From Lacibacter sp. H375 (GTDB lineage: Bacteria; Bacteroidota; Bacteroidia; Chitinophagales; Chitinophagaceae): DNA of 64,000 nucleotides. The stretch is from NCBI RefSeq assembly GCF_037892425.1, contig NZ_JBBKTT010000002.1, forward strand, positions 186,001 to 250,000, in the 5' to 3' direction. Positions 42,372 to 58,893 of this stretch are shown here, in pieces. Under the pieces are notes generated by a model. It was not told the origin of the DNA and made no database searches. It saw only the letters and a program-made list of their open reading frames with translations. Within the stretch, counting starts at the first letter, position 1. The number at the start of each line of letters is the position of its first letter. Position numbers and translations under genes: made by a program.

Positions 42372-42416
42372 CAAATATATACTGCGTGTAAGCCTGCACA
42401 ATAGCATAAATATGTG
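42372..42416 (-). promoter_or_regulatory. Regulon promoter A (operator plus -7 box)
   Basis: Read on the minus strand: CACATATTTATGCT (42403-42416), 23 bp beginning ATTG, then TATATTTG (42372-42379). Drives the 95-residue protein gene, with a leader of about 30 bases. Confidence 0.65.
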
Positions 42417-42478
42417 AATAGTACAAATTGTTGAGTGAACTGTAGTAAACCATGAATAAACCGTTCTTGGTAAATAAC

Positions 42479-42506
42479 AAAAAAACCACCTGCATAAGCA
42501 GATGGT
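42479..42506 (-). terminator. Terminator after the GIN-domain gene
   Basis: ACCA-C-CTGC, loop ATAA, GCAG-A-TGGT (42485-42506), with an A run before it (T run on the minus strand) and T run after it, so it may work in both directions. Confidence 0.7.
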
Positions 42507-42528
42507 TTTTCTTTGTTGATACTCACGA

Positions 42529-43008
42529 TTACTGTTTGCTATAAGATTTGTGCCATTTTTTTATCTGCAGATCAATATCCTGATCAGCTTCAAAAGCAAT
42601 ATCTCCCAGGTTGTTGATCTCTACTTTTGCTTCACCTGCAACTATTACCTGCAGATTTTTTGAAGCAATAACTCCGTTGCTGCGTACATAAGATTTTCCG
42701 TTGATAACGAGCTGGCGAAGGTTCTGTACAGGAACATAAACAGTTACCCTGTTTTTGAGTGAACCTTTTTTGCTTAAGAGCCGTACACGACCATTCTTCT
42801 GATCAAACAATACTGCTTTGTTGTCTTTCTCTTCACCGGTGATACGAAGTTTTGCATCGGTACTTTGTGTAAGCACTACATTAATGTCGTCGCTTACTTC
42901 AATACTGTAAACAGAAGCTGTGAGATCCATTTCTCGTGTAATGTTCTCTGCATTTGCAACAGTGGCCATTGTAAGCACACCGATGAGCAGACTAAATAAT
43001 TGTTTCAT
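42529..43008 (-). CDS. Exported GIN-domain protein (DUF2807-like)
   Basis: 159 residues with a signal peptide (MKQLFSLLIGVLTMATVANA). The rest matches the head GIN domain found in putative autotransporter adhesins: repeated short beta-strand units such as FDQKNGRVRLLSKKGSLKNRVTVYVPV, QLVINGKSYVRSNG and VIVAGEAKVEINNLG, which suggest a right-handed beta-helix. The domain is often associated with two-component or stress systems in Bacteroidota, but the biochemical role is unknown. Its promoter carries the regulon operator (43062-43107). Confidence 0.78.
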   Translation of the reverse strand: MKQLFSLLIGVLTMATVANAENITREMDLTASVYSIEVSDDINVVLTQSTDAKLRITGEEKDNKAVLFDQKNGRVRLLSKKGSLKNRVTVYVPVQNLRQLVINGKSYVRSNGVIASKNLQVIVAGEAKVEINNLGDIAFEADQDIDLQIKKWHKSYSKQ

Positions 43009-43061
43009 GATAATAAGGTTTTTGGCTTTGCAGCCGTGTTTTGATGATTAGTTTAACAATA

Positions 43062-43107
43062 CAAAGATGCATCATGGAGAAGGCCAAAACAATCGCATAA
43101 ACATGTT
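43062..43107 (-). promoter_or_regulatory. Regulon promoter B
   Basis: Read on the minus strand: AACATGTTTATGCG (43094-43107), 24 bp beginning ATTG, then CATCTTTG (43062-43069). Drives the GIN-domain gene. The first base of the left half-site differs from the consensus. Confidence 0.65.
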
Positions 43108-43187
43108 GAAGCGGTAAAAATGAATTACGAGTTGTTGGCTGAAAACCTTGCTGGAGCTGTATTTTAAATTGGTTACACGATAGCTAT

Positions 43188-43248
43188 CACATAATCATGT
43201 GGTTTTATTGCCAGGGTGACAGAATATTAAAACGGTTGTTTACATTTG
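43188..43248 (+). promoter_or_regulatory. Regulon operator C and sensor-kinase promoter
   Basis: Operator CACATAATCATGTG (43188-43201) upstream of the kinase gene. A perfect -7 box TACATTTG is at 43241-43248, 39 bp downstream rather than the usual 24. The odd spacing suggests a different mode of control for the kinase gene. Confidence 0.5.
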
Positions 43249-43264
43249 AATAACTAACAACCGC

Positions 43265-46200
43265 ATGAGAGTCATTGTATCCTTTGTTTTCTTAATCCTT
43301 GCTGTGCTTCCACTTTCTGCACAACGATTTTCTTATGCGTTCAACCGGATAAGTACCGACGATGGTATTGGTTTGCAATCAAATGTTCTCTTCAGTATCT
43401 ACCAGGATAAGAAAGGATACATTTGGGTGGGTGGAAGTAATGGTGTGCAACGGTTTGATGGCGCCAAGTTTGTTACATTCAGTCCTGATGGAACAAAAGG
43501 CGATCCCTTACCTACTGTAACCGTAAACCAGATATTACCGGCCGACAGTAACAGCATGTGGCTGGCGGCTTACTCATTAAAGGAGTTTGGTATTTTCAAT
43601 CCTTCAACTTACAGTTATCGCAAAATACCCATTAAGACATCTGCAACATTACCACCACGATCAGAGTTCAAAATGTGGCAGGATGCTTATGGAGAAACGT
43701 ATATCAATATTCATCATTACGGAAAAATATTGCGTTACGATAAGACGGTGAATGCGTTTACAGAAAACACACCGCTCAATAAATTACCCAAAAACTGGAA
43801 GGCCACTTTCAATACATTTCATGATAAACTGAAAAAACAATATTGGATTGTTTGCGACAGCGGTTTAAGTGTATATGATGAAGCCAGCAAACAAATGTGG
43901 ACCAGGAATTATAATCCTGCTAATCTTCCATTGTTGAATAATGAAGTTGTGCAATCAAATGTTTCAGAGTTTTACATAGATCAGCAACGTCGTCATTGGG
44001 TGTTTAACTGGGCGGGTTCGCAGAAGTTTCATTGCTTTGATGCAACAGGGAAATATCCTTTGAATGATACGGCAGGTCTTGTAGATGTTAACACATCTTA
44101 TGCAGAGCTGAGAAGTTTTTACCAGACAAGGAGCGGCATTTTGTGGATCTACGGTTTGGGCAATCTTTATAGCCTCGACAACAGAACTGATGCGATGAAT
44201 AAAAATTTTGAGCTTCACCGTACACAGTATCTTGATAACTATGGTATCAGATATGGTTCAGTAAATCAGGTGTTTGAAGATATGGATGGTGTGTTGTGGA
44301 TTGCTACAGACCAGGGTTTGTATTATACTTCAACATTCTCGACTGATATCACAAATATTTATTTATCGAATTTACCCGGGTACTACAGTGTAACCGATCT
44401 GATGGAATTGAAGAACGGCGATTACTGGTTGAGCACCTGGGGCAAAGGCATCATCACATTCAATAGAAATTTTAAGCCCTATCCTTCACCGCTTTATAAA
44501 AACATGCCTTCTATGGATGCTGGCACTGCCAATGGTTATCGTTTAACCTGGAGCATGTGTCAGCAAAAAGAAACAGGTAAAATATTTATCGGCTGCCAGA
44601 GTGGCCTGTTAATGATCTACGATCCTGCAACAGGTAAAACAGAATATCAACGTCCGGAAATTTTTGATAAACGCACGGTCCGTTATATTGTAGAGGACCA
44701 TCAAAATAAATTGTGGTTTGGCACCCAGGCCGGACGTATTATTAAATATGATGGCACCAATTATAAACTTGTACTTGATCTTGGACAAGGTGCAATTATC
44801 TACAAAATATTAATCGATAAACAAGGTTGGGCTTGGGTTGCCACACATGATAAAGGTGTATACGCCATCAATACTGTCACTGATAAAGTTGAACAGCATT
44901 ATACCGCAGCAGAAGGCGATGGTCAGCTGTTTACCAATACCTGCACTGATCTTGAGCAACTAAACGACAGTATAATTTATGCATCAACAGAAGCACTCAA
45001 CATCATCAATAAAAGAACAGGTAAAGTGCAACAGGTAACCTGGCGTGAAGGATTACCATCAAATTCCATTAAACGTTTACGGCTCGATAGGAATGGTTAT
45101 CTCTGGATCATTACACACAAGGGGTTATCACGCTACGATCATAAACGAAAACGGTTTACCAGTTATGGCAGCAAGGATGGAATTTTAATGGGCGAGATCA
45201 CAGATAAAGCAGACTTTATCTGCAGCGAAGGTTATGTGATGTTTGCCGGTGTAAACAGTTTATTGTTTTTTAAACCGGATGTGTTTCGAAGAAGTATTCC
45301 GCCGCCTGATGTTACATTAACTGATTTTCTGTTAGGTAATGAATACCAGTTGCTCGATTCATTACAACGTTTACCTGAAATAAGACTGAAGCCTGATCAG
45401 AATAACTTCACCATCAGTTTTGCATGTCTCGATTTTAAAAACAGGGAAAAGTTTATCTATTATTACAAAATGGAAGGTCTTCATAAAGATTGGATAAGGG
45501 CAGATCGTTTATCTGTTCCTTTTGCAGCGTTGTCGCCGGGGCATTACATATTTAAAGTAAAGGCCGAAAGTCTTGATGGAATGGAATCAAAAAATATCAG
45601 CAGCTTACCTATTTATATTAAACCTCCTTTCTGGCGAACGTATTGGTTCATTTCTGCACTGTTGTTGCTTGTGGCAGTGGTTGCTTACAGTATGCACAGG
45701 CTTCGTCTTAACCGGTTAATCGCTGTTGAAAAAATCCGTAATCGTGTAGCTCGTGACCTGCACGATGATATGGGCAGCACCCTCAGCACCATTAACATCC
45801 TCAGTTCAATGGCCAAAGCAAAATTAAATTCTGATGCCATAAAGACGGGAGAATACATTAACAAGATCAGCGATAACAGTCAGCGCATGATGGAGGCAAT
45901 GGATGATATTGTGTGGGCTATTAAACCTGCAAACGATACCATGCAGAAAGTGGTGGCCCGAATGCGTGAGTTTGCAACAAATGTATTTGAAGCAAAAGAA
46001 ATTGACCTTGAGTTTAAAGCAACTGAAGAGGTAAATGAAGCAAAGATTGATATGGAAGGCCGCAGGGATTTCTTTCTCATCTTTAAAGAAGCGGTGAACA
46101 ATGCAGCAAAATATTCAAGGTGCAGCAAAGCTAGTGTGCATGTGTTTGTTGAGAACAGGAAACTTATTTTACTGGTAAAAGATAATGGAGTTGGGTTTGA

Positions 46201-46333
46201 TGTTAAAAGCGCCGATGGCGGAAACGGTTTGGGTAATATGCAAAAGCGCACCGATGCGTTACAAGGTAAACTTCAACTTACATCAAAAGAAGGAGAGGGA
46301 ACTGAAGTGCGATTAACAGTACCACTTAATTAA
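43265..46333 (+). CDS. Membrane sensor histidine kinase with beta-propeller and Y_Y_Y sensor domain
   Basis: 1022 residues. A signal peptide leads a long periplasmic region of reg_prop-type propeller repeats (GYIWVGGSNGVQRFDG, GVLWIATDQGLYYT, KLWFGTQAGRIIKYDG, GYLWIITHKGLSRYD), then a Y_Y_Y domain about 680-765 and one membrane helix near 780-800. The cytoplasmic part has a HisKA_3 dimerisation domain with the phospho-acceptor His833 (RVARDLHDDMGSTLS) and a HATPase domain (NAAKYSRCSKA, DNGVGFD, GNGLGNM). Unlike hybrid (HTCS) systems it has no receiver or AraC output. The NarL-type regulator at 47518 is its natural partner. The signal is unknown. Confidence 0.92.
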   Translation: MRVIVSFVFLILAVLPLSAQRFSYAFNRISTDDGIGLQSNVLFSIYQDKKGYIWVGGSNGVQRFDGAKFVTFSPDGTKGDPLPTVTVNQILPADSNSMWLAAYSLKEFGIFNPSTYSYRKIPIKTSATLPPRSEFKMWQDAYGETYINIHHYGKILRYDKTVNAFTENTPLNKLPKNWKATFNTFHDKLKKQYWIVCDSGLSVYDEASKQMWTRNYNPANLPLLNNEVVQSNVSEFYIDQQRRHWVFNWAGSQKFHCFDATGKYPLNDTAGLVDVNTSYAELRSFYQTRSGILWIYGLGNLYSLDNRTDAMNKNFELHRTQYLDNYGIRYGSVNQVFEDMDGVLWIATDQGLYYTSTFSTDITNIYLSNLPGYYSVTDLMELKNGDYWLSTWGKGIITFNRNFKPYPSPLYKNMPSMDAGTANGYRLTWSMCQQKETGKIFIGCQSGLLMIYDPATGKTEYQRPEIFDKRTVRYIVEDHQNKLWFGTQAGRIIKYDGTNYKLVLDLGQGAIIYKILIDKQGWAWVATHDKGVYAINTVTDKVEQHYTAAEGDGQLFTNTCTDLEQLNDSIIYASTEALNIINKRTGKVQQVTWREGLPSNSIKRLRLDRNGYLWIITHKGLSRYDHKRKRFTSYGSKDGILMGEITDKADFICSEGYVMFAGVNSLLFFKPDVFRRSIPPPDVTLTDFLLGNEYQLLDSLQRLPEIRLKPDQNNFTISFACLDFKNREKFIYYYKMEGLHKDWIRADRLSVPFAALSPGHYIFKVKAESLDGMESKNISSLPIYIKPPFWRTYWFISALLLLVAVVAYSMHRLRLNRLIAVEKIRNRVARDLHDDMGSTLSTINILSSMAKAKLNSDAIKTGEYINKISDNSQRMMEAMDDIVWAIKPANDTMQKVVARMREFATNVFEAKEIDLEFKATEEVNEAKIDMEGRRDFFLIFKEAVNNAAKYSRCSKASVHVFVENRKLILLVKDNGVGFDVKSADGGNGLGNMQKRTDALQGKLQLTSKEGEGTEVRLTVPLN

Positions 46334-46338
46334 CTGTA

Positions 46339-47448
46339 ATGACCCGTTCACTCAGTCAAAAATTCAGATTTTTTACGTTTGTGTGTATTGCACTGCTGGC
46401 TTATGTGCACGGATATAATTTGAACAACACTTATCTCGCTCCTTTCAGTACGGTAGAAGAACCACTCACCTTCACCACTTTTTTTGAATATTTAGTTGCA
46501 AATGGGTTATTACGTTTTCGCATTCCTATGTTATTCATGATCTCCGGATACCTGTATGCAGCATACGATCATCGTTCTTATGGCCACCAGGTAAAAAACA
46601 GGTTCCGCACACTCATCATCCCATATTTTATCTGGAGTGCATTTGGTTTATTGTTTACATTTTTATTGCAACAGTTTCCATACACAGCAAATGTTGTTGC
46701 AGCAGCAGGTATTGATCAGCTGGGCGATAATCGTCCGTATACCGCAATCGGCTGGGCGGGTATGCTTGAGCGTTTAACACTTTCGCCTATATCTTACCAG
46801 CTATGGTTTATCATGTCGTTGTTTTTCTTTAATCTTTTGTATCCTGTTATACGCTGGCTGGTTCAAAGACTTCCTTTTATATGGCTGCCATTTACATTCC
46901 TGTTATTTTTTGTAACGGTGGTAAACGTTCCCTTACTTGATTTCCGGGGGTTATTTTTCTTTTCATTAGGCGTTTGGATTCAGAAACGGAATTTTTCACT
47001 TGAAACAGAGCCGAAATGGTTCAGTCTTGGTTTAACACTTATTGTCTTTATTGGATTGTCGATTGTAAAAACTTTTATGGCTTTTGAGCTTGAACCCAAT
47101 GTTTGGTCTTCTTGGATCCCGCTTATCATCATTCACCAAGTATCGGTTCTTGCTGGTATTATGGCAATGTGGTTTGGAGCTGATAAAGTGATCAAATGGT
47201 TTACTCAGAAAGAATGGTTTAATTATGCCAGTGGATTTTCCTTTTTCATCTTTGGTTTGCATGTTCCTTTGTTGCCTTACGTTATGAAATGGGCACTGAT
47301 GAATACCTCCATGATTCCCTATTACCGGCTGCTTACTTACCTGCTGATACCGTTAATTACACTTTGTTTTTGTATTTGGGTGGGCAGTGTGTTACGAAGA
47401 TTTGCACCGAAAGCATATGCTGTGATGACAGGCGGCCGTGGGTTCTGA
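46339..47448 (+). CDS. Acyltransferase 3 family membrane protein
   Basis: 369 residues with about 10 membrane helices, acyltransferase type 3 family (RIPMLFMISGYLYAAYDHRSYG resembles the R-x(10)-G motif region, with an N-terminal loop after FVCIALLAYVHGYN). Members O-acetylate or O-succinylate sugars of lipopolysaccharide, peptidoglycan or exopolymers. It begins 5 bp after the kinase stop, so it is co-transcribed with the kinase. A lipid or cell-wall modification under control of the same system is plausible. Confidence 0.82.
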   Translation: MTRSLSQKFRFFTFVCIALLAYVHGYNLNNTYLAPFSTVEEPLTFTTFFEYLVANGLLRFRIPMLFMISGYLYAAYDHRSYGHQVKNRFRTLIIPYFIWSAFGLLFTFLLQQFPYTANVVAAAGIDQLGDNRPYTAIGWAGMLERLTLSPISYQLWFIMSLFFFNLLYPVIRWLVQRLPFIWLPFTFLLFFVTVVNVPLLDFRGLFFFSLGVWIQKRNFSLETEPKWFSLGLTLIVFIGLSIVKTFMAFELEPNVWSSWIPLIIIHQVSVLAGIMAMWFGADKVIKWFTQKEWFNYASGFSFFIFGLHVPLLPYVMKWALMNTSMIPYYRLLTYLLIPLITLCFCIWVGSVLRRFAPKAYAVMTGGRGF

Positions 47449-47456
47449 TGAATAAG

Positions 47457-47501
47457 CACATGTTTATGTGATTGGTAGCGGGGGGCTTAGTATTAATTTT
47501 G
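47457..47501 (+). promoter_or_regulatory. Regulon promoter D (response regulator)
   Basis: CACATGTTTATGTG (47457-47470), 23 bp beginning ATTG, then TAATTTTG (47494-47501). RNA would start about 12 bases before the regulator ATG at 47518. Implies autoregulation. Confidence 0.7.
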
Positions 47502-47517
47502 TATAAACAATAACAAC

Positions 47518-48150
47518 ATGATAAAAGTATTGCTGTATGAAGATAATCCGCAGCTACGTGAAGGTCTTACAATGTTGATTGATGGAAGTGATGGATTTAC
47601 AGTATTGGCTTCCTATAAAAATTGCGACAACGTAACCGATGAAGTAGAAGCCTGGAAACCCGATGTGATCCTGATGGATATTGATATGCCCGGCACGAAT
47701 GGTATTGAAGGATTGAAAAAGATAAGAGCCCGTAATGGCGATGTAAAAATATTAATGCTCACCGTGTTTGATGATAATAAGAATGTGTTTGAAGCTATAC
47801 GCAACGGTGCCAATGGTTATGTGCTGAAAAAAACACCTCCTGCCAAATTGCTTGAGTATATTGAAGAAGCAGCGAGTGGAGGTGCGCCAATGACGGCATC
47901 CATAGCAACGCAGGTACTCAAAATGTTTTCGCAGGTGAATACTTTGCAAAACGACGACTATAATTTAAGCGACCGTGAAAAACAGGTTTTGCAGTTGTTA
48001 GTTGACGGGTACAGCTACAAGATGATTGCTTCTGAAATGTTCATTTCCATTGATACTGTTCGCAGTCATATTAAAAAGATCTACGAGAAGCTCCACGTCA
48101 ATTCAAAAAGTGAGGCCGTGGCAAAAGCATTTAAGGATAAATTATTGTAA
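47518..48150 (+). CDS. NarL/LuxR-family response regulator
   Basis: 210 residues. Receiver domain with acidic residues at 8-9 (YEDN), phospho-acceptor Asp54 (VILMDIDMPGTNG), Thr in MLTVF and Lys in YVLKKTPP. A LuxR-type HTH lies at about 145-207 (LSDREKQVLQLLVDGYSYKMIASEMFISIDTVRSHIKKIYEKL). The cognate kinase is at 43265. A regulon-type operator immediately precedes its own promoter. NarL-type regulators bind as dimers to short inverted repeats, so this protein is the leading candidate to bind the ten CACAT-N4-ATGYG sites. Confidence 0.94.
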   Translation: MIKVLLYEDNPQLREGLTMLIDGSDGFTVLASYKNCDNVTDEVEAWKPDVILMDIDMPGTNGIEGLKKIRARNGDVKILMLTVFDDNKNVFEAIRNGANGYVLKKTPPAKLLEYIEEAASGGAPMTASIATQVLKMFSQVNTLQNDDYNLSDREKQVLQLLVDGYSYKMIASEMFISIDTVRSHIKKIYEKLHVNSKSEAVAKAFKDKLL

Positions 48151-48273
48151 ACGGATTTTCAATTAGCATTTGTCAGTAAAGAATCAAAGTCTCTTTTTCA
48201 ACTCATCCCATTTTTTATTATTTAGTTGAATTGAAACCTGGCTGAAATATACAGTTCATCCAACTCTTTCATC

Positions 48274-48299
48274 AATAGCCTGCACAGCGGGCTATTTTT
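48274..48299 (+). terminator. Terminator between response regulator and 48332 gene
   Basis: AATAGCC (48274-48280) pairs with GGCTATT (48290-48296), then TTT. A possible -7 box TATTTTTG (48293-48300) overlaps its tail, 32 bp before the next start codon. Confidence 0.65.
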
Positions 48300-48331
48300 G
48301 TATCCACCTTATCATTAATCAAAACTTTATC

Positions 48332-49786: not shown

Positions 49787-49796
49787 TCACATTGTT

Positions 49797-49824
49797 CCTG
49801 TTCTTTTGTAGAACAGGATTTTTT
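49797..49824 (+). terminator. Intrinsic terminator after the HEEFH gene
   Basis: CCTGTTCT, loop TTTGT, AGAACAGG (49797-49817), then A and six T. The start codon of the next gene is 22 bp further on. Confidence 0.85.
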
Positions 49825-49846
49825 ATTTTGCCTGAAAGAAATTTAC

Positions 49847-50380: not shown

Positions 50381-50390
50381 GAGCACAATA

Positions 50391-50407
50391 TGTGATGCAG
50401 CATCACA
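50391..50407. promoter_or_regulatory. 17-bp palindrome TGTGATGC-A-GCATCACA
   Basis: Perfect 8-bp arms around a single A, directly after the GNAT stop and about 45 bp before regulon promoter E. It resembles a Crp-type site (TGTGA...TCACA) but with a 7-bp spacer instead of 6. Confidence 0.35.
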
Positions 50408-50434
50408 TCATTTCAACCAATTGCTTCCTCAATT

Positions 50435-50480
50435 CACACAGTTATGCGATTGATTTCGGGGTCTCTGCAATCTATCTTCA
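50435..50480 (+). promoter_or_regulatory. Regulon promoter E
   Basis: CACACAGTTATGCG (50435-50448), 24 bp beginning ATTG, then TATCTTCA (50473-50480). The weakest of the set (one change in the left half-site, imperfect -7 box) but with exact spacing. It leads into the leader ORF and hairpins before the Crp-family gene. Confidence 0.5.
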
Positions 50481-50518
50481 CATCAGTTTCGTTTATATCA
50501 TTACTAAAATCATTTTTT

Positions 50519-50617
50519 ATGAACGACTTAATGTGGGCTCATATCTACGTTGTTCCAACAGGTACAGGTTATGGTTACCTGTTGATCAACTGCACAGGTA
50601 ACCCCGAAAATAACTGA
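50519..50617 (+). CDS. Possible 32-residue leader or small protein
   Basis: ATG at 50519 to TGA at 50615-50617, encoding MNDLMWAHIYVVPTGTGYGY then LLINCTGNPENN. It begins about 34 bases into the RNA expected from promoter E and covers the alternative hairpins that end in a T run. It has no signal peptide or membrane segment. It is aromatic-rich (one Trp, three Tyr). It could be a regulatory leader peptide or a small protein. Chance is not excluded at this length. Confidence 0.3.
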   Translation: MNDLMWAHIYVVPTGTGYGYLLINCTGNPENN

Positions 50618-50660: not shown

Positions 50661-51239
50661 ATGGAAATTGAATTGCTGAAACAATTTGTTCAACAGATCT
50701 ATCCACTTCCTTTAGCGGATCTGGAACGTTTTACATCCGGGTGGCAACCGCTAACAGTAAAGCGGAAAACAATTCTTACTGCTGCCGGGGAAACAGAACG
50801 TCATCTTTATTTCGTATTGGAAGGATTGCAACGTGCTTTTTACATTGGCGATGGTAATAAAGAAGCCACCATCGTATTTACTTATCCCCCTTCTTTCAGT
50901 GGAGTGGCTGATAGTTTTCTTACGCAAACTCCATCGCTATATTTTCTTGAGACATTAACTGCCAGTCGCTTCCTGCGTATTTCCTATGACGCAGTTGATC
51001 AAATGTCAAAGTCTTCTCCGCATATTCAGCATTTATTATTCAAGGCAACAGCCTATGCGTTGAAAGGTGCATTACAACGCCATATCGAATTGCAGTGTTT
51101 TACCAATGAAGAAAAATTCAGAACATTACTGCAACGAAGTCCGCACATTCTTAATCTTGTGCCACACAAATACATTGCTTCTTATCTCGGCATGGATGCC
51201 ACTAATTTCAGCAAGTTGCTGGGCTCCGTTAAACTCTGA
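50661..51239 (+). CDS. Crp/Fnr-family transcriptional regulator
   Basis: 192 residues from the ATG at 50661. A TTG six codons earlier would add an unlikely extension. An N-terminal cyclic-nucleotide-binding-like beta-roll (about 15-115: TILTAAGETERHLYFVLEGLQRAFYIG) lacks the PRS..A cAMP signature, so it probably does not bind cAMP in the E. coli way. A C-terminal helical part with a short HTH (VPHKYIASYLGMDATNFSKLLGSV) follows. A possible promoter TTTG-N17-TATCTTTA (to 50655) would give an almost leaderless mRNA. Targets unknown. The neighbouring DinB-like gene may be one. Confidence 0.82.
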   Translation: MEIELLKQFVQQIYPLPLADLERFTSGWQPLTVKRKTILTAAGETERHLYFVLEGLQRAFYIGDGNKEATIVFTYPPSFSGVADSFLTQTPSLYFLETLTASRFLRISYDAVDQMSKSSPHIQHLLFKATAYALKGALQRHIELQCFTNEEKFRTLLQRSPHILNLVPHKYIASYLGMDATNFSKLLGSVKL

Positions 51240-51415
51240 TTTTTTCCGGCTTCATAAATCTTGGTTTTTACCAACAATCATGTTGTTGCTTCAGTTGAAA
51301 TTTGTATAAAATTCGGAAGCATGATATATCCATGAAAATTATCAAGCTAATTTATACTACAGCGACGATGATTTTTATGCATATACTATGTGGCTAAAAA
51401 AATAAAAAAGAACAC

Positions 51416-52009
51416 ATGAAACAGATCCACAGCAATACCTTGCTTGAACTTTTACAAAGTGATGTTCGTGAAATATTATTGCAATGCACTGCTTTGCAAA
51501 ACACAAACCAGCCATTGCTTACACAGCAGCCTCACCCCGGCAAGTGGAGTGTGGCTCAGGTTCTGGAACATTTAAACATCTATTCCCGTTACTACATTAC
51601 GGCAATAGAAGAAAAGCTTCATCTCAATCAATCAGGGCCTAACCAAAACTTTACACCCGGCTGGTTTGGCAATTATTTTACCAACCTCATGAAGCCGACA
51701 GACGAAAAGAAACTCAAAAGTAAAATGAAAGCACCAGCCAACGCTGTTCCTTCTGCTCAACCCGATGTTGTGGCGATGTTGAATGAATTTATCAATCATC
51801 AACATCATTTGCTGAACCTGTTGCAGATTGCTCGTACGGCTAATCTTGACTACAACCGCATTCCTATTTCGCTTACTAAACTCATTAAGCTAAAACTGGG
51901 CGACACCTTCCGTTTCTTTATTGCACATGAGCAACGTCATTTCCTGCAAATTGAAAACACCTTAAAGCAGGTTGAGCAAAATCGTATGTCGGTTTTGTCA
52001 GCTGCCTGA
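51416..52009 (+). CDS. DinB-like metal-binding protein
   Basis: 197 residues, DinB_2-type four-helix bundle. Characteristic start HPGKWSVAQVLEHLNIYSRYY with His52 as the first metal ligand, and a last helix FFIAHEQRHFLQIENTL with two His as the others. An insert containing NFTPGWFGNYFTNLMKP lies between helices. The molecular role is unknown. Some family members are thiol S-transferases. It lies 176 bp after the Crp-family gene. Confidence 0.82.
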   Translation: MKQIHSNTLLELLQSDVREILLQCTALQNTNQPLLTQQPHPGKWSVAQVLEHLNIYSRYYITAIEEKLHLNQSGPNQNFTPGWFGNYFTNLMKPTDEKKLKSKMKAPANAVPSAQPDVVAMLNEFINHQHHLLNLLQIARTANLDYNRIPISLTKLIKLKLGDTFRFFIAHEQRHFLQIENTLKQVEQNRMSVLSAA

Positions 52010-52061
52010 GTTAAACCTTGTCGTTAAAGAGATATGATTGAAAGATCAAATCTCTTATTAT

Positions 52062-52107
52062 CACATTGATATGTGATTGTATGAGTGTTTTTTATTTGGA
52101 AGCTTTG
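52062..52107 (+). promoter_or_regulatory. Regulon promoter F
   Basis: CACATTGATATGTG (52062-52075), 24 bp beginning ATTG, then AAGCTTTG (52100-52107). Drives the three-gene unit starting at 52126. Confidence 0.65.
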
Positions 52108-52125
52108 CTGCAAATAAACCTTATC

Positions 52126-52719
52126 ATGAAATTTAACCTTATCATCATCCTTTCTTTTCTTTTTGCGATAGGGGCATTCAATCTTTCAGCCCAGCAACAT
52201 ACAAAGCCACTTGGGTATGAGGTAGCAGGCGGCCTGCAAACGTATTATGCCCCTTTCATTAAAGCAACATTAAAAGGAACACAACCCGTTTTCATGGCGG
52301 GTGTGCATCAGCCCTTAAATGTAAAAAACAGTATTGGACTAACATTGAGGCTAGGGTATAACCGGCACGTGCAACAAGGCGATGCATTGTTTACTCAGCT
52401 GTTATTTAACTACACACCACTTGTTGCTAAAAAAATTGAATTGGGAATTGGCGCCGGCGTTGGTTATCAGTTTTCATTTTATCCATCAACACCTTTAAAG
52501 TGGAACGGTACCGAATGGTTTGAAGGGAAAGCCATAAAAGCTGTTATACAGGTGCCTGCACAGGTAAGCATTGGCTATCGTGGAATTGAAACTACCAAAG
52601 GCAGATTTACTCCTTATGTTTCTTATCAGCTGAATGCATTGTTCAACTACACACCTGATCTTACTCCATTACCTTCTTCATTCTTTCTGCTGGGTGTAAA
52701 GTATTCAGCAAAAAAATAA
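52126..52719 (+). CDS. Small outer-membrane beta-barrel protein
   Basis: 197 residues from the ATG at 52126 (an in-frame ATG at 52066 lies in the operator and before the promoter box, so it is rejected). Signal peptide MKFNLIIILSFLFAIGAFNLSAQ, then alternating amphipathic strands with Gly/aromatic pattern (GYEVAGGLQTYYAPF, IELGIGAGVGYQFSFYP, FTPYVSYQLNALFNY) and a terminal LGVKYSAKK. Probably an 8-strand OmpX/OmpW-like barrel. First gene of a regulon operon with a serine hydrolase and a lipoprotein. Confidence 0.72.
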   Translation: MKFNLIIILSFLFAIGAFNLSAQQHTKPLGYEVAGGLQTYYAPFIKATLKGTQPVFMAGVHQPLNVKNSIGLTLRLGYNRHVQQGDALFTQLLFNYTPLVAKKIELGIGAGVGYQFSFYPSTPLKWNGTEWFEGKAIKAVIQVPAQVSIGYRGIETTKGRFTPYVSYQLNALFNYTPDLTPLPSSFFLLGVKYSAKK

Positions 52720-52744
52720 TCATTACTCTCAACTTATTAATTGA

Positions 52745-53950
52745 ATGATCATGAAACATAGTTCGATCGTTTTGGCAGTAGCCTGTTTATTTCTTTTAGC
52801 TTCCTGTCGGCAGGATATATACAGCACAGCCGTTACACCTGTTGCCGGTGTACTACCGGAAAATGAAAATCACCCAATGAAAGACAGCCTTGATTTTATT
52901 TTGAATAAACATATTGCCAAAGGTGTACCTGGTGCCCAGGTAATGGTGAAGAATGCCGATGGCTGGTATATTACAAACGGTGGTTATGCAAAAACGGAAA
53001 CAAAAACCGCTATGTCGGATAACATGACCGCCTGGGTTTACAGTATTTCAAAAACCTACCTGGCAACTGTTGCATTGCGCTTAAAAGAAAAGGGCCTGCT
53101 GAATCTGGATGCACCAATAAAAAATTTTATTTCTCAGGATATACTAAAGCATATTGCAAATGGCGATAAGATCACAGTTCGCCAATTAATGAATCATAGC
53201 AGCGGGTTACGAAATCATACAGTAGAACCATCCTTTCAGCTCTTTCAACTTAACAATCCATTTACTGTTTTAACTCTTGAAGAAAAAATCAAATTCATTT
53301 ACGACAAACCTGCGTTGTTTGAACCCGGAACAGATTTTTTCTACAGCAACAGTGGTTACACATTGTTACAGTGGGTTGTGGAAGCTGCAAGCAATAAACC
53401 TTATGCGCAGGTTTTGCAGGAAGAAATTCTGCAGCCGTTGAATCTCACAAAAACCTACTATCATATATCTGATGCAAAATTGCTTGAGCTTGGTTTTCCC
53501 AACTATTATTTTGAACGTTACAATAATGGTCAGCTCGAAAACGTAACTAAATGGAATAATACAATTGCAAAAGGGTTAGAAGGTTACGGTGGTATTGCAG
53601 CAAACGGAACTGATGTGATTCGTTTTATGGAAGCACTCATTAATGGTAATATCATCAGTGCAGCTTCTTTACAGGAAATGCGTACATGGATACAGGGAAA
53701 AGAAAGTACAGAGCCTGACTACGGCCTGGGTCTTGAGTATTTTGGCAATTACAATAAAACGGTACCAACAATCACATATGGTCACGAAGGCGATGGAATA
53801 GGCGGTACAACACAGGTTTTATATGTTCCTGCAAATGATACTTACATTTTTATTACCATCAACGCCGGCCGGCAGTTGTTTGGTGAGTATCTGTTCCGCA
53901 CCAGCGACCTGAAAATAGATCTGTGTCGTTATGTGGCAACTTATCGTTAA
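52745..53950 (+). CDS. Lipoprotein serine hydrolase (beta-lactamase class C / DD-peptidase family)
   Basis: 401 residues, or 399 from a second ATG at 52751. Lipoprotein signal ending LLASC (Cys21). Serine beta-lactamase-like fold: S-x-x-K at Ser100-Lys103 (VYSISKTYLA), YSN in FFYSNSGYTL, and HEGDGIGG in place of the KTG/HxG triad near the end. The family includes class C beta-lactamases, DD-carboxypeptidases and esterases. The substrate is unresolved. Middle gene of the promoter F operon, so linked to the envelope regulon. Confidence 0.85.
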   Translation: MIMKHSSIVLAVACLFLLASCRQDIYSTAVTPVAGVLPENENHPMKDSLDFILNKHIAKGVPGAQVMVKNADGWYITNGGYAKTETKTAMSDNMTAWVYSISKTYLATVALRLKEKGLLNLDAPIKNFISQDILKHIANGDKITVRQLMNHSSGLRNHTVEPSFQLFQLNNPFTVLTLEEKIKFIYDKPALFEPGTDFFYSNSGYTLLQWVVEAASNKPYAQVLQEEILQPLNLTKTYYHISDAKLLELGFPNYYFERYNNGQLENVTKWNNTIAKGLEGYGGIAANGTDVIRFMEALINGNIISAASLQEMRTWIQGKESTEPDYGLGLEYFGNYNKTVPTITYGHEGDGIGGTTQVLYVPANDTYIFITINAGRQLFGEYLFRTSDLKIDLCRYVATYR

Positions 53951-53984
53951 CTAAAATTATTTCTTAACCTGTAAACGAATTTTT

Positions 53985-54755
53985 ATGCGTTACACCTACA
54001 TTAGCTTTGGAATTATTTTGTTGTTGCTTGTTTCCTGCAGGAAACCAACAGATCAACCTCAGCGAACATCAAAACTGGTAACAAAAATTTCTTCATCACC
54101 CACCGATTTCCGTTCGTTTACCTATGATGCAAACAAACGCCTGACGAATCATACGCTCCAGTTTATTAATGGAGACGGAACATCGCTTATGTCGGTGAAT
54201 TATTTTTATATCGATGGCATCATCAGCACAGCTTCATCACAAGGAGGTTCTATATTTTATGAAACAGAAGGCCGGCAGGTGAAAGTGGTAAGAACTTTCC
54301 GCCCAATGGGAAGTGAGATATCTACACTTTACTACACGTATAACAGCAAGGGACAATTGATCGAATGGAGAGAAAAATTTAGTCAGCCTGATATCGATCA
54401 GCCAAAAGAATCAAAACAGGCGTTTGAATATTATGCTGATGGAAATTTGAAGCGTACGATGTACTATTTAAAGATGACAAACGACGGACCTTTTGTTTTA
54501 AATGGAAGTACAGTGTATGATCAATACGATCAGTTTAAAAATCCTGAGGTTTCATTTCTGGGTACAGTTTATTTGCCTTCAGTTGTGTTTCAAAAAAACA
54601 ATGCCGGTCGTATAAGGCATTATGCAGCTAACGGTGAGCTGTATCAAACAAGTACATTTGAATATACGTATGATGCCGACGGTTACCCGGCAACAAAGCT
54701 TTATAAAGACGACCGAAGCACAATTGATATATTATTTACATACAGCTACCAATAA
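53985..54755 (+). CDS. YD-repeat-like lipoprotein (paralogue of 5940 and 58928)
   Basis: 256 residues with a lipoprotein signal ending LLVSC (Cys18) followed by RKPTDQPQ. The body has repeats of the form FTYDANKRLTNHTL, YTYNSKGQLIEWRE, YTYDADGYPATKLY, ending FTYSYQ. The N-terminal and terminal motifs match the lipoproteins at 5940 and 58928. Third gene of the promoter F operon, 34 bp after the serine hydrolase. Function unknown. Confidence 0.72.
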   Translation: MRYTYISFGIILLLLVSCRKPTDQPQRTSKLVTKISSSPTDFRSFTYDANKRLTNHTLQFINGDGTSLMSVNYFYIDGIISTASSQGGSIFYETEGRQVKVVRTFRPMGSEISTLYYTYNSKGQLIEWREKFSQPDIDQPKESKQAFEYYADGNLKRTMYYLKMTNDGPFVLNGSTVYDQYDQFKNPEVSFLGTVYLPSVVFQKNNAGRIRHYAANGELYQTSTFEYTYDADGYPATKLYKDDRSTIDILFTYSYQ

Positions 54756-54790
54756 CACATTTAATCTTTCAATAGCGGTTGGATTAAGAA

Positions 54791-54814
54791 GGGATCTTGC
54801 AGAAGATCCCTTTT
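54791..54814 (+). terminator. Intrinsic terminator of the promoter F operon
   Basis: GGGATCTT, loop GCAG, AAGATCCC, then TTTT, directly abutting the next regulon operator at 54815. Confidence 0.85.
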
Positions 54815-54860
54815 CACATATTCATGTGATTGCCTCAATTTTTGTATGCCTGTACATTTG
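54815..54860 (+). promoter_or_regulatory. Regulon promoter G
   Basis: CACATATTCATGTG (54815-54828), 24 bp beginning ATTG, then a perfect TACATTTG (54853-54860). The box ends 3 bp before the ATG at 54864, so the mRNA would be leaderless or nearly so. Confidence 0.72.
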
Positions 54861-54863
54861 TTT

Positions 54864-56306
54864 ATGAAACTTATCATCTTCTTATTCGCATTTGGACTGC
54901 ACTATTCTTTTGCCCAGCTCCCGGCAGATAAAAAGTTAAAGATTGACAGTCTCATTCAACAGTATATTGAAACCAAACAATTCTCAGGTTGTGTGCTTGT
55001 TGCAAAGAACAACGAGGTATTGTATCAGCAGGCCTTTGGTTATGCCAGCAGGGAAGAGCAAGTGCTAAACCGCATTGCCACTAATTTTAATATAGCCTCA
55101 ATGGGCAAAACGTTCACTGCAACACTTGTTATGCAGTTGGTGCAGGAAGGTAAAATTTCCCTTGAGCAAACACTTGCAACAGTTTTGCCTGAGTTTAAAG
55201 TGAAGAAGGCAGATAGCATAACTGTAAGGCATCTGTTGACGCATACTTCGGGTGTTGGCAATTATATGATGCATGTGAATTTTGAAGCAGAACGTCATCA
55301 ACTGAAATCGCTGAATGATGTAATGCCATATGTGGTTGCAATGGAGCCAACATTGGATTATGTGGGGCAGCGTCATGATTATTCTAACTCAGGATTCATT
55401 TTGTTGGGAAAGATCGTTGAAAAAATTAGCGGTAAGTCGTACATGCAAAACCTGGAGGAGCGTATTTTTAAACCAGCAGGTATCAAAAGTTCATACATTC
55501 ATTACCCGGCCACTTTCATTGCGCCAAATGAAGCAACTCCTTACCTTGCTTATACGCAGAAAACATTTGTAAACGCAGCAGCAGAAGAATTTCCTGCTTT
55601 GTCTGATGGTGGTATGCAGTCGAATGTGATCGATCTTTATCGCTTTGCCAAAGCACTACTTAACGACAAACTTCTTTCAACTGCCATGCGTGATAGTATG
55701 TGGAGCGGAAAAGTTGCAACAGGAAGAGCAGATAAATACAGCTTTGGCTGGGTTGATGAACAGTTAGATTTTGGGAAAAGAACTTATAGCCATAGCGGTG
55801 GGGGTAAAGGATTTTCTTCTGATCTCAAGATCGTAAAAGAAGATGGATATATTGTTATAGTGTTAATCAATAACCGTGTGAACCCACGTGATGTTACAAA
55901 TAATATTTTGCGTATTCTCTACAACAAAGAAACCCGCAAGCCGGAAAAGTATCTTGAAAATGTATTGATGGAAGTAACAGAAGAGAAAGGATTTGATTAT
56001 GTGCGTACGAATTACAAGGCCATTCTTAAAGAAAAGGGGTTTGATAAAACACCAAATCCGTGGGTATATATTATGTACTCCGATATGTTTGAAACGATGA
56101 AGGATTTTGACAAAGCATTTGCTGTAATTGAAATGGGGCGGGAAGAATTTCCCAATGAAGCATCTTTATATAATGTAACAGGCCAGTTGTATGCTAATCA
56201 GAAAAAGTTTAAGGAAGCTGCTGAGTGGTTTAATAAAGCACTTGTAATTAATCCTGAAGACGATTTTGCGAAGATGATGCTGAAGAATATCAGTAGTAAA
56301 TTGTAA
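54864..56306 (+). CDS. Exported serine hydrolase with TPR tail
   Basis: 480 residues from the ATG at 54864 (an in-frame ATG at 54846 lies upstream of the -7 box). Signal peptide MKLIIFLFAFGLHYSFAQ. Beta-lactamase-type catalytic domain with S-x-x-K at Ser79-Lys82 (ASMGKTFTATL), YSN in HDYSNSGFILLG, and HSGGGKGF as the third motif. The last about 110 residues contain tetratricopeptide-like helices (SLYNVTGQLYANQKKFKEAAEWFNKALVINPEDD). Either an envelope hydrolase or an esterase. Directly behind promoter G, and followed 15 bp later by a RibD-like gene. Confidence 0.85.
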   Translation: MKLIIFLFAFGLHYSFAQLPADKKLKIDSLIQQYIETKQFSGCVLVAKNNEVLYQQAFGYASREEQVLNRIATNFNIASMGKTFTATLVMQLVQEGKISLEQTLATVLPEFKVKKADSITVRHLLTHTSGVGNYMMHVNFEAERHQLKSLNDVMPYVVAMEPTLDYVGQRHDYSNSGFILLGKIVEKISGKSYMQNLEERIFKPAGIKSSYIHYPATFIAPNEATPYLAYTQKTFVNAAAEEFPALSDGGMQSNVIDLYRFAKALLNDKLLSTAMRDSMWSGKVATGRADKYSFGWVDEQLDFGKRTYSHSGGGKGFSSDLKIVKEDGYIVIVLINNRVNPRDVTNNILRILYNKETRKPEKYLENVLMEVTEEKGFDYVRTNYKAILKEKGFDKTPNPWVYIMYSDMFETMKDFDKAFAVIEMGREEFPNEASLYNVTGQLYANQKKFKEAAEWFNKALVINPEDDFAKMMLKNISSKL

Positions 56307-56321
56307 AATTGAAAGATTCTG

Positions 56322-56855
56322 ATGCAAAGGAAAGTTGTTGTTTATATCGCAGCCAGTGTTGATGGTTATATTGCTGCACCCGATGGTGATCTTTCATTTC
56401 TTTCGAAAGTAGAAAAGGAAGGGGAAGATTATGGCTACGGAATTTTTATCGCTACTGTCGATACCGTTGTTCTAGGTAAGAATACATACGATAAGGTATT
56501 ATCGATGGGTTATCCTTTTCCGCATGCTGATAAGGAAGCTTATAACATTACAAGAACCGAACGGGCAACCGAAGGAACAATAAATTTCTACACTGGTGAT
56601 GTGGTTGATTTGGTAGGAATGCTGAAAGAGCAAAATGGCAAAACGATCTTTATTGATGGGGGTGCGTATGTGGTGAACAGATTGTTACAGCATGGTTTGG
56701 TTGATGAACTTTATCTTTCATACATACCCGTTTTGCTTGGCGGTGGGATTGCTTTGTTTAAACGGGGAAACCCTTTACAAAATCTGGAACTTCAAACGGT
56801 AAAAACATTTGATACAGGTCTTGTACAACTTCATTATCGTTTTGTAAAAGTCTGA
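56322..56855 (+). CDS. Dihydrofolate reductase-like (RibD C-terminal family) protein
   Basis: 177 residues, RibD C-terminal/YwjB-type reductase domain: starts VVVYIAASVDGYIAAPDGDLSFL, with VLGKNTYDKVL, IFIDGGAYVVNRLLQHGLVDELYLSYIPVLLGGGIALF and a terminal THLY-like VQLHYRF. Presumably an NADPH-dependent reductase. It is much more divergent than true DHFR, and the substrate is unknown. Second gene of the promoter G operon. Confidence 0.85.
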   Translation: MQRKVVVYIAASVDGYIAAPDGDLSFLSKVEKEGEDYGYGIFIATVDTVVLGKNTYDKVLSMGYPFPHADKEAYNITRTERATEGTINFYTGDVVDLVGMLKEQNGKTIFIDGGAYVVNRLLQHGLVDELYLSYIPVLLGGGIALFKRGNPLQNLELQTVKTFDTGLVQLHYRFVKV

Positions 56856-56872
56856 CCTGCGAACTTCCTTTT

Positions 56873-56918
56873 CACATGTTCATGTGGTGTTGCTGCAATC
56901 ACCAACTGGTTACATTTG
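56873..56918 (+). promoter_or_regulatory. Regulon promoter H
   Basis: CACATGTTCATGTG (56873-56886), a perfect palindrome, then 24 bp and a perfect TACATTTG (56911-56918). Leader of about 10 bases before the ATG at 56932. Confidence 0.75.
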
Positions 56919-56931
56919 GTAAACCTTTTTT

Positions 56932-58239
56932 ATGAAACTTGTCATAAACCTTGTCATCTTTTTACTTTTTTCACTTCATACCGTTACAGCACAGGTAACG
57001 AAAGAACAAAAATCAGAAGCGATCGATAGTGTTATTAAGTTGATGAATGAACGCTACATTTTTCCAGAGACTGCAAAGCAAATTGAACTTCACTTGCGAA
57101 AGCAGCAATCAAAAAAGGCTTACGATACTATCACCAGTGCTGATGGTTTTGCGTCTCAACTAACAACAGATGTAAGAAGCATCTGCAATGATAAGCATGT
57201 AACCATCCGTTATTCAGCTGAGCCATTAGTGATCAACCGTAACAACGATTTCATGCAGATATCAGAAGAGGAACGTAAAGGCTATGCGGAGTTTCTTCGT
57301 TTGGAAAACTATGGTGTAAAGAAACTGGAAGTGTTAAAAGGTAACATTGGATATATCGATTTTAAATTTTTATGCGGAACAGAGTATGCCGGTGATTTTT
57401 ATGCAGCAATGATGAACTATGTGCAACATACCGATGCGCTCATCATCGACTTTCGTCATTGCGGTGGAGCCATGAGCGACAATGTAATCCCTTTTCTCTG
57501 CAGTTATTTTTTTGCCGATAAAACACACTTAAATGATCTATACTGGCGTGAGCGGAATTTTACACAACAAACCTGGACACAGGTAGTAGTGCCAGGCAAA
57601 AAATATCTCAACAAGCCGATTTATATTTTAACCAGCGGCGGTACTTTTTCAGGTGCCGAAGAAATGGCTTATGATCTTAAAAATTTAAAACGGGCAATCA
57701 TCATTGGCGAAGTAACAGGCGGTGGCGCAAATCCCGGTGGTTCTGTAAATCTTACAAAGCACTTCAATATGTTTTTACCTGTTGGCCGTGCCATTAATCC
57801 TATTACAAAAACAAACTGGGAAGGAGTGGGTGTGCAGCCCGATAGTTTGATCATGCCAAGGCTTGCATTGCAGAAAGCACATATACTGGCTATGCAAAAC
57901 AGTTTCAATACATCAACTGATCAGGGATGGAAAGATGAATTGAAGCGCTTAATTGCACAGGTAGAAAAAGAAACACCTGTATTTACAAAAGTTACGTTCC
58001 GGTTAAAGGGTTATGCCAATGCGAAAGTCGTTTCAGTGGCAGGCAGTTTTAATGATTGGTCAGCTTCTTCTGCAAAAATGAAAAGACAAGGCGATGAGTG
58101 GATCGTTGAAACAATTGCTGAGACTGGGAAGCATATGTACAAGTTTGTAATAGACGGGCAGTGGATCATTGATCCTGCTAATAAAGAAACTGAAATGGAG
58201 AACGGGTATCAGAATTCTGTCGTTGTAGTGAAGAGGTAA
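56932..58239 (+). CDS. S41-family peptidase fused to a glycogen-binding-type domain
   Basis: 435 residues with a signal peptide (MKLVINLVIFLLFSLHTVTA). An N-terminal helical/interphotoreceptor-retinoid-binding-like region precedes the S41 tail-specific protease core, with catalytic Ser240 in SGGTFSGAEEMAYDL and the later GEVTGGGANPGG. No PDZ domain is seen. The last about 95 residues (VTFRLKGYANAKVVSVAGSF, NDWSASSAKMKRQGDEW, HMYKFVIDGQWIIDP) form an AMPK/isoamylase-N type carbohydrate-binding domain, an unusual partner. Probably a periplasmic or surface peptidase. First gene behind promoter H. Confidence 0.85.
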   Translation: MKLVINLVIFLLFSLHTVTAQVTKEQKSEAIDSVIKLMNERYIFPETAKQIELHLRKQQSKKAYDTITSADGFASQLTTDVRSICNDKHVTIRYSAEPLVINRNNDFMQISEEERKGYAEFLRLENYGVKKLEVLKGNIGYIDFKFLCGTEYAGDFYAAMMNYVQHTDALIIDFRHCGGAMSDNVIPFLCSYFFADKTHLNDLYWRERNFTQQTWTQVVVPGKKYLNKPIYILTSGGTFSGAEEMAYDLKNLKRAIIIGEVTGGGANPGGSVNLTKHFNMFLPVGRAINPITKTNWEGVGVQPDSLIMPRLALQKAHILAMQNSFNTSTDQGWKDELKRLIAQVEKETPVFTKVTFRLKGYANAKVVSVAGSFNDWSASSAKMKRQGDEWIVETIAETGKHMYKFVIDGQWIIDPANKETEMENGYQNSVVVVKR

Positions 58240-58265
58240 TTTTCAATCACGTTAAAACCAAATAA

Positions 58266-58694
58266 ATGAATAAATTAATCTTATCATCAAGTGTTCTTCT
58301 TTTACTTAGCGCCTGCAGTAAAATAACGCCCGTAAAAGAAATTGCGGTTTCGAAAACTGTAGAGTTCAGTGTTTACCAAGCTGTAGATTATTCTGCTCCC
58401 GTTTATAATGGAGTAGAAGCAGAGGTTCGGTTGACTCTTGGTAAACAAACTTCGAACGGCAGCGAGGTTATTTTATGGGATACTGTGATACCTTATCAAA
58501 GTCTTCGTGCCTATCCTGCAATACAAACTCCTTTACGCATCAATAAACAATTCGACATTTTACAAAATTCTGAGCAACTTAGATTTGGCAAAGTCATCAG
58601 GTATAGAGATGCCTTGAACCAGGTTAGTTTCGTCGCAATTGGTGAAGACATTCCACCTTCAGTTAATGTAAAAGTGATTCAGGTAGATCTGTAG
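58266..58694 (+). CDS. Hypothetical lipoprotein
   Basis: 142 residues with a lipoprotein signal ending LLSACS (Cys17). No domain recognised. The remainder is a mostly beta, soluble sequence. It begins 26 bp after the S41 peptidase gene and should be co-transcribed from promoter H. Confidence 0.68.
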   Translation: MNKLILSSSVLLLLSACSKITPVKEIAVSKTVEFSVYQAVDYSAPVYNGVEAEVRLTLGKQTSNGSEVILWDTVIPYQSLRAYPAIQTPLRINKQFDILQNSEQLRFGKVIRYRDALNQVSFVAIGEDIPPSVNVKVIQVDL

Positions 58695-58725
58695 TTTATT
58701 TTGCTTATGTTAATGAAACGCAAAC

Positions 58726-58771
58726 CACATGTTTATGCGATAAGCAGATTGTCTTAATAGCAGCATCTTTG
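58726..58771 (+). promoter_or_regulatory. Regulon promoter I
   Basis: CACATGTTTATGCG (58726-58739), 24 bp, then CATCTTTG (58764-58771). It is followed within 75 bp by an intrinsic terminator and not by a gene. Confidence 0.65.
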
Positions 58772-58775
58772 CATC

Positions 58776-58843
58776 AGTCACAATCAATAGACGATTTACA
58801 ATTGCTAACCTTGCACCTGAGACCTGTACAGCAGGTCTTTTTT
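58776..58843 (+). ncRNA. Putative small RNA of about 68 nt
   Basis: RNA from promoter I would start near 58776 and end at AGACCTG (58820-58826), loop TACAG, CAGGTCT (58832-58838) followed by T through 58843. The stretch has no ATG. Regulon promoter J begins 5 bp later. It may be a free small RNA or a terminated leader with read-through into the lipoprotein gene at 58928. 5' end estimated from the promoter box. Confidence 0.45.
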
Positions 58844-58847
58844 ATTT

Positions 58848-58893
58848 CACATATTTATGCGGTTGTGGTGCAACGTTAGTGGAAGCATCTTTG
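58848..58893 (+). promoter_or_regulatory. Regulon promoter J
   Basis: CACATATTTATGCG (58848-58861), 24 bp beginning GTTG, then CATCTTTG (58886-58893). Drives the lipoprotein gene at 58928 with a leader of about 30 bases. Confidence 0.68.

Follow-up and report, generated by a model that had tools for sequence, protein, structure and literature searches.

Among described two-component systems (TCSs), the LiaSR/VraSR systems of Firmicutes envelope stress have small, membrane-sensing kinases without a large extracytoplasmic domain. The hybrid TCSs of Bacteroides combine a kinase and an AraC-type output domain in one polypeptide, and the pairing of a Reg_prop propeller with a Y_Y_Y domain has been likened to their sensors at polysaccharide loci. 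In promoters of the CRP class I and class II types, the activator binds at either of two fixed positions, next to the -33/-35 element or further upstream. To our knowledge, few two-component operators have been worked out in Bacteroidota beyond polysaccharide loci. Here we describe a family of ten intergenic sites in Lacibacter sp. H375, in a 64,000-nucleotide stretch of contig NZ_JBBKTT010000002.1 (hereafter the window) that encodes a sensor kinase (gene at 43265) and a NarL-type response regulator (gene at 47518). The sites are very probably the palindromic operator (approximately NACAT-N4-ATGYG) of this regulator, which as partner of the kinase would activate promoters in two layouts. In the proximal layout a -7 box (TAnnTTTG) begins 23 or 24 bp after the site, and in the distal layout it begins 38-40 bp after it. 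The predicted operators and the two regulatory genes are as follows.

42403..42416, minus strand: operator, proximal layout, before the gene of a 95-residue protein; -7 box TATATTTG at 42379-42372
43094..43107, minus strand: operator, proximal layout, before a GIN-domain gene; -7 box CATCTTTG at 43069-43062
43188..43201, plus strand: operator, distal layout, before the kinase gene; no -7 box at 23 or 24 bp, perfect TACATTTG 39 bp away at 43241-43248
43265..46333, plus strand: sensor histidine kinase of 1022 residues with Reg_prop propeller, Y_Y_Y, HisKA_3 and HATPase_c (Pfam)
47457..47470, plus strand: operator, proximal layout, before the regulator gene; -7 box TAATTTTG at 47494-47501
47518..48150, plus strand: NarL/LuxR-type response regulator (Response_reg PF00072, E 5.9e-25; GerE PF00196, E 1.2e-18)
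50435..50448, plus strand: operator, weaker match; box-like TATCTTCA at 50473-50480
52062..52075, plus strand: operator, proximal layout, before an outer-membrane barrel gene; box AAGCTTTG at 52100-52107
54815..54828, plus strand: operator, proximal layout; box TACATTTG at 54853-54860
56873..56886, plus strand: operator, proximal layout; box TACATTTG at 56911-56918
58726..58739, plus strand: operator, proximal layout, at the start of a short transcription unit; box CATCTTTG at 58764-58771
58848..58861, plus strand: operator, proximal layout; box CATCTTTG at 58886-58893

All ten sites were present where a preliminary description of this DNA had placed them. The motif given there, CACAT-N4-ATGYG, was exact in seven, five of which are perfect palindromes, and one base off in the other three: the site at 42403 ends in ATGCT, that at 43094 starts with AACAT and that at 50435 starts with CACAC. 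The accompanying claim of a TAnnTTTG-like box at 23 or 24 bp in nine sites stood for eight of the ten within one mismatch; the box of 50435 (TATCTTCA) needs two. As had been noted, most sites run straight into ATTG (six of ten, with GTTG in one more).

In 100 dinucleotide-shuffled versions of the window, CACAT-N4-ATGYG had a mean of 0.57 matches and a maximum of 5; this comparison counts palindromes on both strands, such that the window itself gave 12 rows from seven places. An independent matrix, trained on 66 proximal sites from outside Lacibacter, was then scanned over the window. Its top nine places were the nine proximal sites (scores 16.2-37.5), followed by 43188 at 9.0, and the best place outside the ten sites scored 2.0, in line with the earlier remark that the full pattern was not noticed in the first 42 kb. 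The maxima in block-shuffled windows (n = 5) were 3.2-11.7. Since the score of 43188 falls inside this range and those of the other nine fall outside it, the case for 43188 lies in its own layout. Chance or a coding signal as the origin of the sites was ruled out by the shuffles, by the control palindromes described below and by the intergenic position of the sites, and a scan of the 5.08-Mb genome did not find the motif at random density without a spaced box. Together, these data confirmed the ten sites as real.

To identify the controller, relatives of the 47518 regulator were sought in genome contigs, and the best 80 of 350 stretches (75-93% identity) were kept. These loci came from records named Chitinophagaceae, Flavobacteriaceae, Cyclobacteriaceae, Prolixibacteraceae and others. 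Judged by the regulator, Lacibacter cauensis (93%) is the closest named relative. The 80 loci contained 120 perfect palindromes in 1.49 Mb, compared with 0, 0 and 0 for three re-ordered half-site controls, and 146 of 163 CACAT-N4-ATGYG matches were intergenic in DNA that is 87.5% coding by a simple ORF (open reading frame) caller. In nine loci without an exact site, the equivalent position upstream of the regulator gene had a version with one or two mismatches (GACATAATTATGTG in four). When a site within two mismatches and a box at 23 or 24 bp, also within two, were counted together, they preceded the regulator gene in 74/80 loci, against 2/19 homologs at 47-55% identity and 0.75% of shuffles. 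The two distant homologs (loci L070 and L074; L-numbers denote loci and G-numbers the genomes compared) have TACAT-N4-ATGTA with a -7 box at 23 or 24 bp before the regulator homolog, perhaps the operator of a sister system.

The regulator has the receiver domain and GerE helix-turn-helix of the NarL/FixJ family, and the solved structures scoring best against it were NarL (1a04, E 2.1e-32) and, second, VraR. Residues 178-192, where we placed the recognition helix, were 98.6% conserved among 81 sequences, compared with 83.6% for the receiver. Of the 80 loci, 70 encode a relative of the kinase (37 at >=40% identity), 29 a relative of the acyltransferase encoded behind the kinase and nine a relative of a Crp-family protein (seven at >=40%). 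The position of the acyltransferase behind the kinase and its recurrence in 29 loci suggest that the two proteins may work together.

The association was also seen between genomes. Among 119 genomes, regulon-like matches occurred in 9/11 with an ortholog of the regulator at >=74% identity (43 matches) versus 4/108 others (6 matches). The filter defining "regulon-like" was chosen with the sites already known; the unfiltered match lengths nevertheless gave the same picture, with 50/59 matches in ortholog-bearing genomes being of the 23/24 type (length 45 or 46), versus 27/66 in the others. A strict pattern had 17 matches in nine other genomes, spread over eight of the nine, and its reversed control had one; three of the 17 (L190, L193 and L198) were unused as they have no close downstream gene. 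The genes that follow the site differ between lineages and are not homologous, so its distribution is not accounted for by inheritance of a single promoter. At the level of sequence, these comparisons established the existence, geometry and conservation of the sites and tied them to the 47518 regulator, the controller favored in the preliminary description. Autoregulation, which had been considered likely there, was likewise supported, as sites precede both the kinase and the regulator genes and are kept across Bacteroidota.

The promoters fell into two layouts. Among 132 oriented sites, boxes within one mismatch began at 23-24 bp in 80 and at 38-40 bp in 33, with five between 25 and 37 bp. 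Regulator promoters with exact oriented sites had the box at 23 or 24 bp without exception (24/24); in kinase promoters with such sites it was at 38-40 bp in 26/31, at 23 or 24 bp in two and at neither distance in three. When 66 kinase promoters were counted (four kinase ORFs were left out as cut or short), a site within one mismatch was present in 43, compared with 1.1% of shuffles, and the box of these 43 lay at 38-40 bp in 37, at 23 or 24 bp in one and at neither in five. A TTG 23 bp before the box was present in 46/75 proximal promoters and in 0/25 distal ones, three of which have TTG at 18 bp. The spacer within the site also differed, being mostly AAAY in distal and NNTY in proximal promoters, and distal sites continue with RTTT instead of ATTG. 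The class II-like geometry claimed for this locus, a site at a fixed position abutting the -33 element, thus holds in other genera too. The preliminary description had given the spacing for nine of its ten sites, and the exception is 43188. This site has no box at 23 or 24 bp; it is no failed case, as it represents a conserved second layout of kinase genes that is retained in 6/6 other Lacibacter genomes. We conclude from these promoter comparisons that kinase genes have their own promoter layout, which is new here. Of six GIN genes with an exact site, five showed no box; in the Lacibacter cases at least, this exact site belongs to the kinase gene and was read from the opposite direction, and the GIN gene has a weaker site of its own.

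Start-site maps of Flavobacterium place the -7 box at -12 to -5 (PMC9723704). On this basis, the proximal site, which abuts the -33 TTG, would be centered near -43.5 and the distal site, about 15 bp further upstream and without TTG at -33, near -58.5. We propose that the kinase senses a periplasmic ligand and phosphorylates the 47518 regulator, which would then dimerize on the palindrome and activate sigma-A promoters. The proximal layout would serve the regulator and effector genes and the distal layout the kinase gene, such that both regulatory genes would be under their own product. Many of the effectors are predicted to be exported, including GIN-domain proteins, S41 peptidases, small barrels and lipoproteins. 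Binding, its phosphorylation dependence, activation and an envelope role are what we infer from the sites and the genes behind them.

Several observations weigh against this proposal. The 80 loci are not independent and their phylogeny is uneven, with many Arenibacter and Sediminibacterium, and six of the 80 regulator promoters have no site. A site within one mismatch is missing from 23/66 kinase promoters, six of which reach it at two mismatches, and the remaining 17, ten of them from Arenibacter, lack it even then. Neither box was found within one mismatch at 26/125 unique exact sites, and a small extra group of seven boxes lies at 15 bp. Regulon-like matches occurred in four genomes without an ortholog, and under the filter there were none in two genomes with one (G015 and G042), in which the regulator gene is preceded by GACAT-type sites with one mismatch. 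Finally, 54/87 effector targets look exported by a crude rule, compared with 41% of ORFs of >=100 residues in the same loci, a moderate excess only.

The preliminary description had named the Crp-family protein encoded at 50661 as the alternative controller. It lies inside the cluster and has a cNMP-binding domain, and in 6/7 Lacibacter genomes, counting the present one, a close relative (76-96% identity) occurs together with the regulator; the 5-4-5 form of the palindrome would, moreover, be suitable for a dimer of the FNR type. Nevertheless, binding of the sites by this protein is scarcely credible, given that across the 80 regulator loci a Crp relative was present in just nine and a kinase relative in 70. 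Crp relatives at >=52% identity also occur in genomes without regulon-like matches (e.g., G014, G016, G020, G022 and G064), G017 has the regulator and the site with a weak Crp match (3e-11), and the Crp start is 226 bp downstream of site 50435, a conserved ORF intervening. The four genomes that have regulon-like matches and no ortholog, and the fact that binding by the 47518 regulator is a prediction, would be accommodated by an unlinked regulator that binds the palindrome and controls both this TCS and the effectors. We consider this very unlikely, as the site goes with the 47518 regulator across families, and is rare before its distant homologs (2/19), and regulon-like matches are far more frequent in ortholog-bearing genomes (9/11) than in the others (4/108).

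A different question is whether the 47518 regulator binds the sites and represses, by hindering RNA polymerase near -33, with phosphorylation relieving or strengthening the block. Autorepression is common among regulators, and a site touching -33, as the proximal sites do, could also repress. However, repressor sites usually vary in position, and the fixed 23/24-bp phase upstream of -33, together with a fixed distal phase without TTG, fits activator contacts better. The geometry therefore argues for activation, and we view repression as unlikely, if somewhat less so than control from an unlinked locus.

The remaining features of the cluster, all associated with the sites described above, are listed here.

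42050..42337, minus strand: small exported-looking protein of 95 residues with an N-terminal hydrophobic stretch; no Pfam match
42529..43008, minus strand: exported-looking GIN-domain (DUF2807) protein (Pfam PF10988, E 2.5e-13)
46339..47448, plus strand: membrane acyltransferase (Acyl_transf_3), starting 6 bp past the last base of the kinase gene
50519..50617, plus strand: 32-codon ORF MNDLMWAHIYVVPTGTGYGYLLINCTGNPENN, absent from the ORF list, open in five Lacibacter genomes
50661..51239, plus strand: Crp-family protein with cNMP-binding domain (Pfam)
52126..52719, plus strand: small outer-membrane beta-barrel protein (weak Pfam match), with relatives behind the site in L117 and L123
52745..54755, plus strand: serine hydrolase (52745-53950) and lipoprotein (53985-54755), neither gene with its own site
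54864..56306, plus strand: serine hydrolase with TPR tail, start codon 3 bp after the -7 box
56932..58239, plus strand: S41 peptidase with C-terminal AMPK1_CBM domain (Pfam)
58776..58842, plus strand: candidate transcript of ~65 nt with an intrinsic terminator stem at 58819-58839 (from folding)
58928..59713, plus strand: lipoprotein of a family recurring behind the site in other genera (sequence comparison)

The acyltransferase is probably co-transcribed with the kinase, and the serine hydrolase at 52745 and lipoprotein at 53985 probably share the transcript of the barrel gene at 52126. The gap between box and start codon of the serine hydrolase at 54864 is 4 bp in four relatives; with a gap of 3 bp here, its mRNA is probably leaderless. 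In GIN ortholog promoters, a site within two mismatches and a box at 24 bp were found in 6/6 other Lacibacter genomes. The site and box also precede relatives of the 95-residue gene in G013 and G009; none was found in the 230 bp upstream of its G004 relative, and the other Lacibacter stretches examined have no relative of this gene, the G003 stretch ending near there. The 484-residue protein encoded after the regulator (48332-49786) had no Pfam match, and by eye it has a HEEFHR stretch in common with a protein behind the site in L188.

Two features had been overlooked or barely noted. The site at 50435, which had been listed among the promoter sites, was unchanged between this genome and four other Lacibacter genomes and was not found in G010. 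It is followed by the conserved 32-codon ORF, with the Crp start farther downstream. This ORF starts 84 bp after the first base of the site (79-84 bp in the five genomes), and its variable columns by codon position number 7, 3 and 16, with 11 of 18 variable codons synonymous. The tandem sites at 58726 and 58848, 122 bp apart, are present in 6/7 Lacibacter genomes and not in the G010 stretch, and between them a stem followed by a T run was seen in 4/6 genomes (folds judged by eye). An RNA of ~65 nt made between the tandem sites is thus a candidate. A search of 41500-60500 against Rfam gave no match, and no pairing of the short RNA with leaders was seen by eye, unscored.

AACCTTRTCAT or a close variant was observed around start codons in the cluster (48306, 52118, 52136, 56949 and 58914). 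The leader element AACCTTATCAT was considered as a second regulon-specific signal and was not counted as such because it is also found elsewhere in the genome. When followed by ATGA, its genome matches were both behind sites (2/2), and AACCTTRTCATC alone had eight genome matches (reversed control, three), two of them behind sites.

The regulon had been described as compact. The contigs of this genome are designated C1 and C2, the window lying on C2 (269.7 kb). The bare palindrome occurs at 14 places in the whole genome, five in the cluster (reversed control, one), and six of the nine places outside the cluster are inside genes. The site combined with a TTTG 24-31 bp downstream has 11 matches, six in the cluster (reversed control, 0); two of the five beyond the cluster are a single coding palindrome read both ways. 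A two-mismatch search at the fixed spacings gave 17 and 12 matches (controls, 8 and 6), of which 8 were in the cluster, 15 inside genes and 6 intergenic; the 15 inside genes were dropped. Five of the six intergenic promoters outside the cluster probably belong to the regulon.

C1:3714061: unlinked promoter before a serine hydrolase (named by eye; no clear signal peptide)
C1:3754250: unlinked promoter before a lipoprotein
C1:4498617: unlinked promoter before a lipoprotein (named by eye)
C1:2774052: unlinked promoter before a second GIN-domain lipoprotein (DUF2807, E 1.1e-27)
C1:719269: unlinked promoter before a PhnD-like binding protein with a signal-like N-terminus (E 4.2e-37)

The 14-bp sites at C1:3714061 and C1:3754250 are also present in G003, where the sequence after them is similar (orthology of the genes unchecked). 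The sixth intergenic match (C1:110121, L169) is doubtful on account of its AACAT start and TAATTATG, and a palindrome before a SusC-like gene (L005, C1:3575736) had no convincing -7 box by eye and was left as possible. Thus the regulon is concentrated in the cluster, as described, and probably not confined to it.

Several families follow the site in two or more lineages: kinases, regulators, GIN-domain proteins, S41 peptidases, lipoproteins of the 53985/58928 type, small outer-membrane barrels and a cytochrome-c lipoprotein. In the Arenibacter genome of L112, the cytochrome gene (L203) is on a different contig than the regulator locus. DUF2807 proteins were found behind the site in the window, at the unlinked C1:2774052 and in L097, and also in L109, there without a box within one mismatch. 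A protein of an ECF-sigma-like family was seen behind the site in L124, L154 and L159 (of these, the L124 protein was scanned with Pfam); such a gene behind the site would make a cascade. These target classes fit an envelope role, which they suggest without naming the signal.

The regulator, its operator, the phase of its promoters and many of its targets could be read from sequence, and they hold across several families. The separate layout of the kinase genes lets different thresholds for sensor and output be tested directly, and genes that escaped earlier notice can be sought with the site, the 32-codon ORF and the short RNA unit being two examples. Whether we are dealing with an undescribed TCS across Bacteroidota families, with a two-layout operator code that sets different sensor and output thresholds and a Lacibacter regulon to which a 32-residue peptide and a ~65-nt RNA belong, we judge to be about evenly balanced. 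Within the literature covered, with subscription journals and preprints largely outside it, nothing was recognized as this system and the operator sequence was unmatched.

One of the closest likenesses is to LiaSR/VraSR, which shares the combination of a HisKA_3-type kinase with a NarL-type regulator, here one with VraR as its second-best solved relative. PMC11237479 assigns the Toastrack class, which includes DUF2807, to LiaSR-type circuits, and a protein of this class is a recurring target here. The same source proposes an intracellular Toastrack, in contrast to the GIN proteins described here, which look exported. The kinase also differs, as it has a large propeller sensor with Y_Y_Y in 1022 residues, and no LiaF-type match was found among 19 window proteins scanned. 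The Toastrack link to LiaSR-type systems is a parallel rather than membership, as the large propeller sensor of the kinase does not fit that family. The sensor domains recall those of the Bacteroides hybrid TCSs; however, kinase and regulator are separate proteins here, the output domain is of the LuxR type (GerE), and none of the 19 proteins scanned matched SusCD or a glycoside hydrolase. The two fixed positions measured here resemble those of CRP class I and class II promoters, with the difference that they appear to be used by a protein of another family, on Bacteroidota -33/-7 promoters, and are divided between the kinase gene and the other genes.

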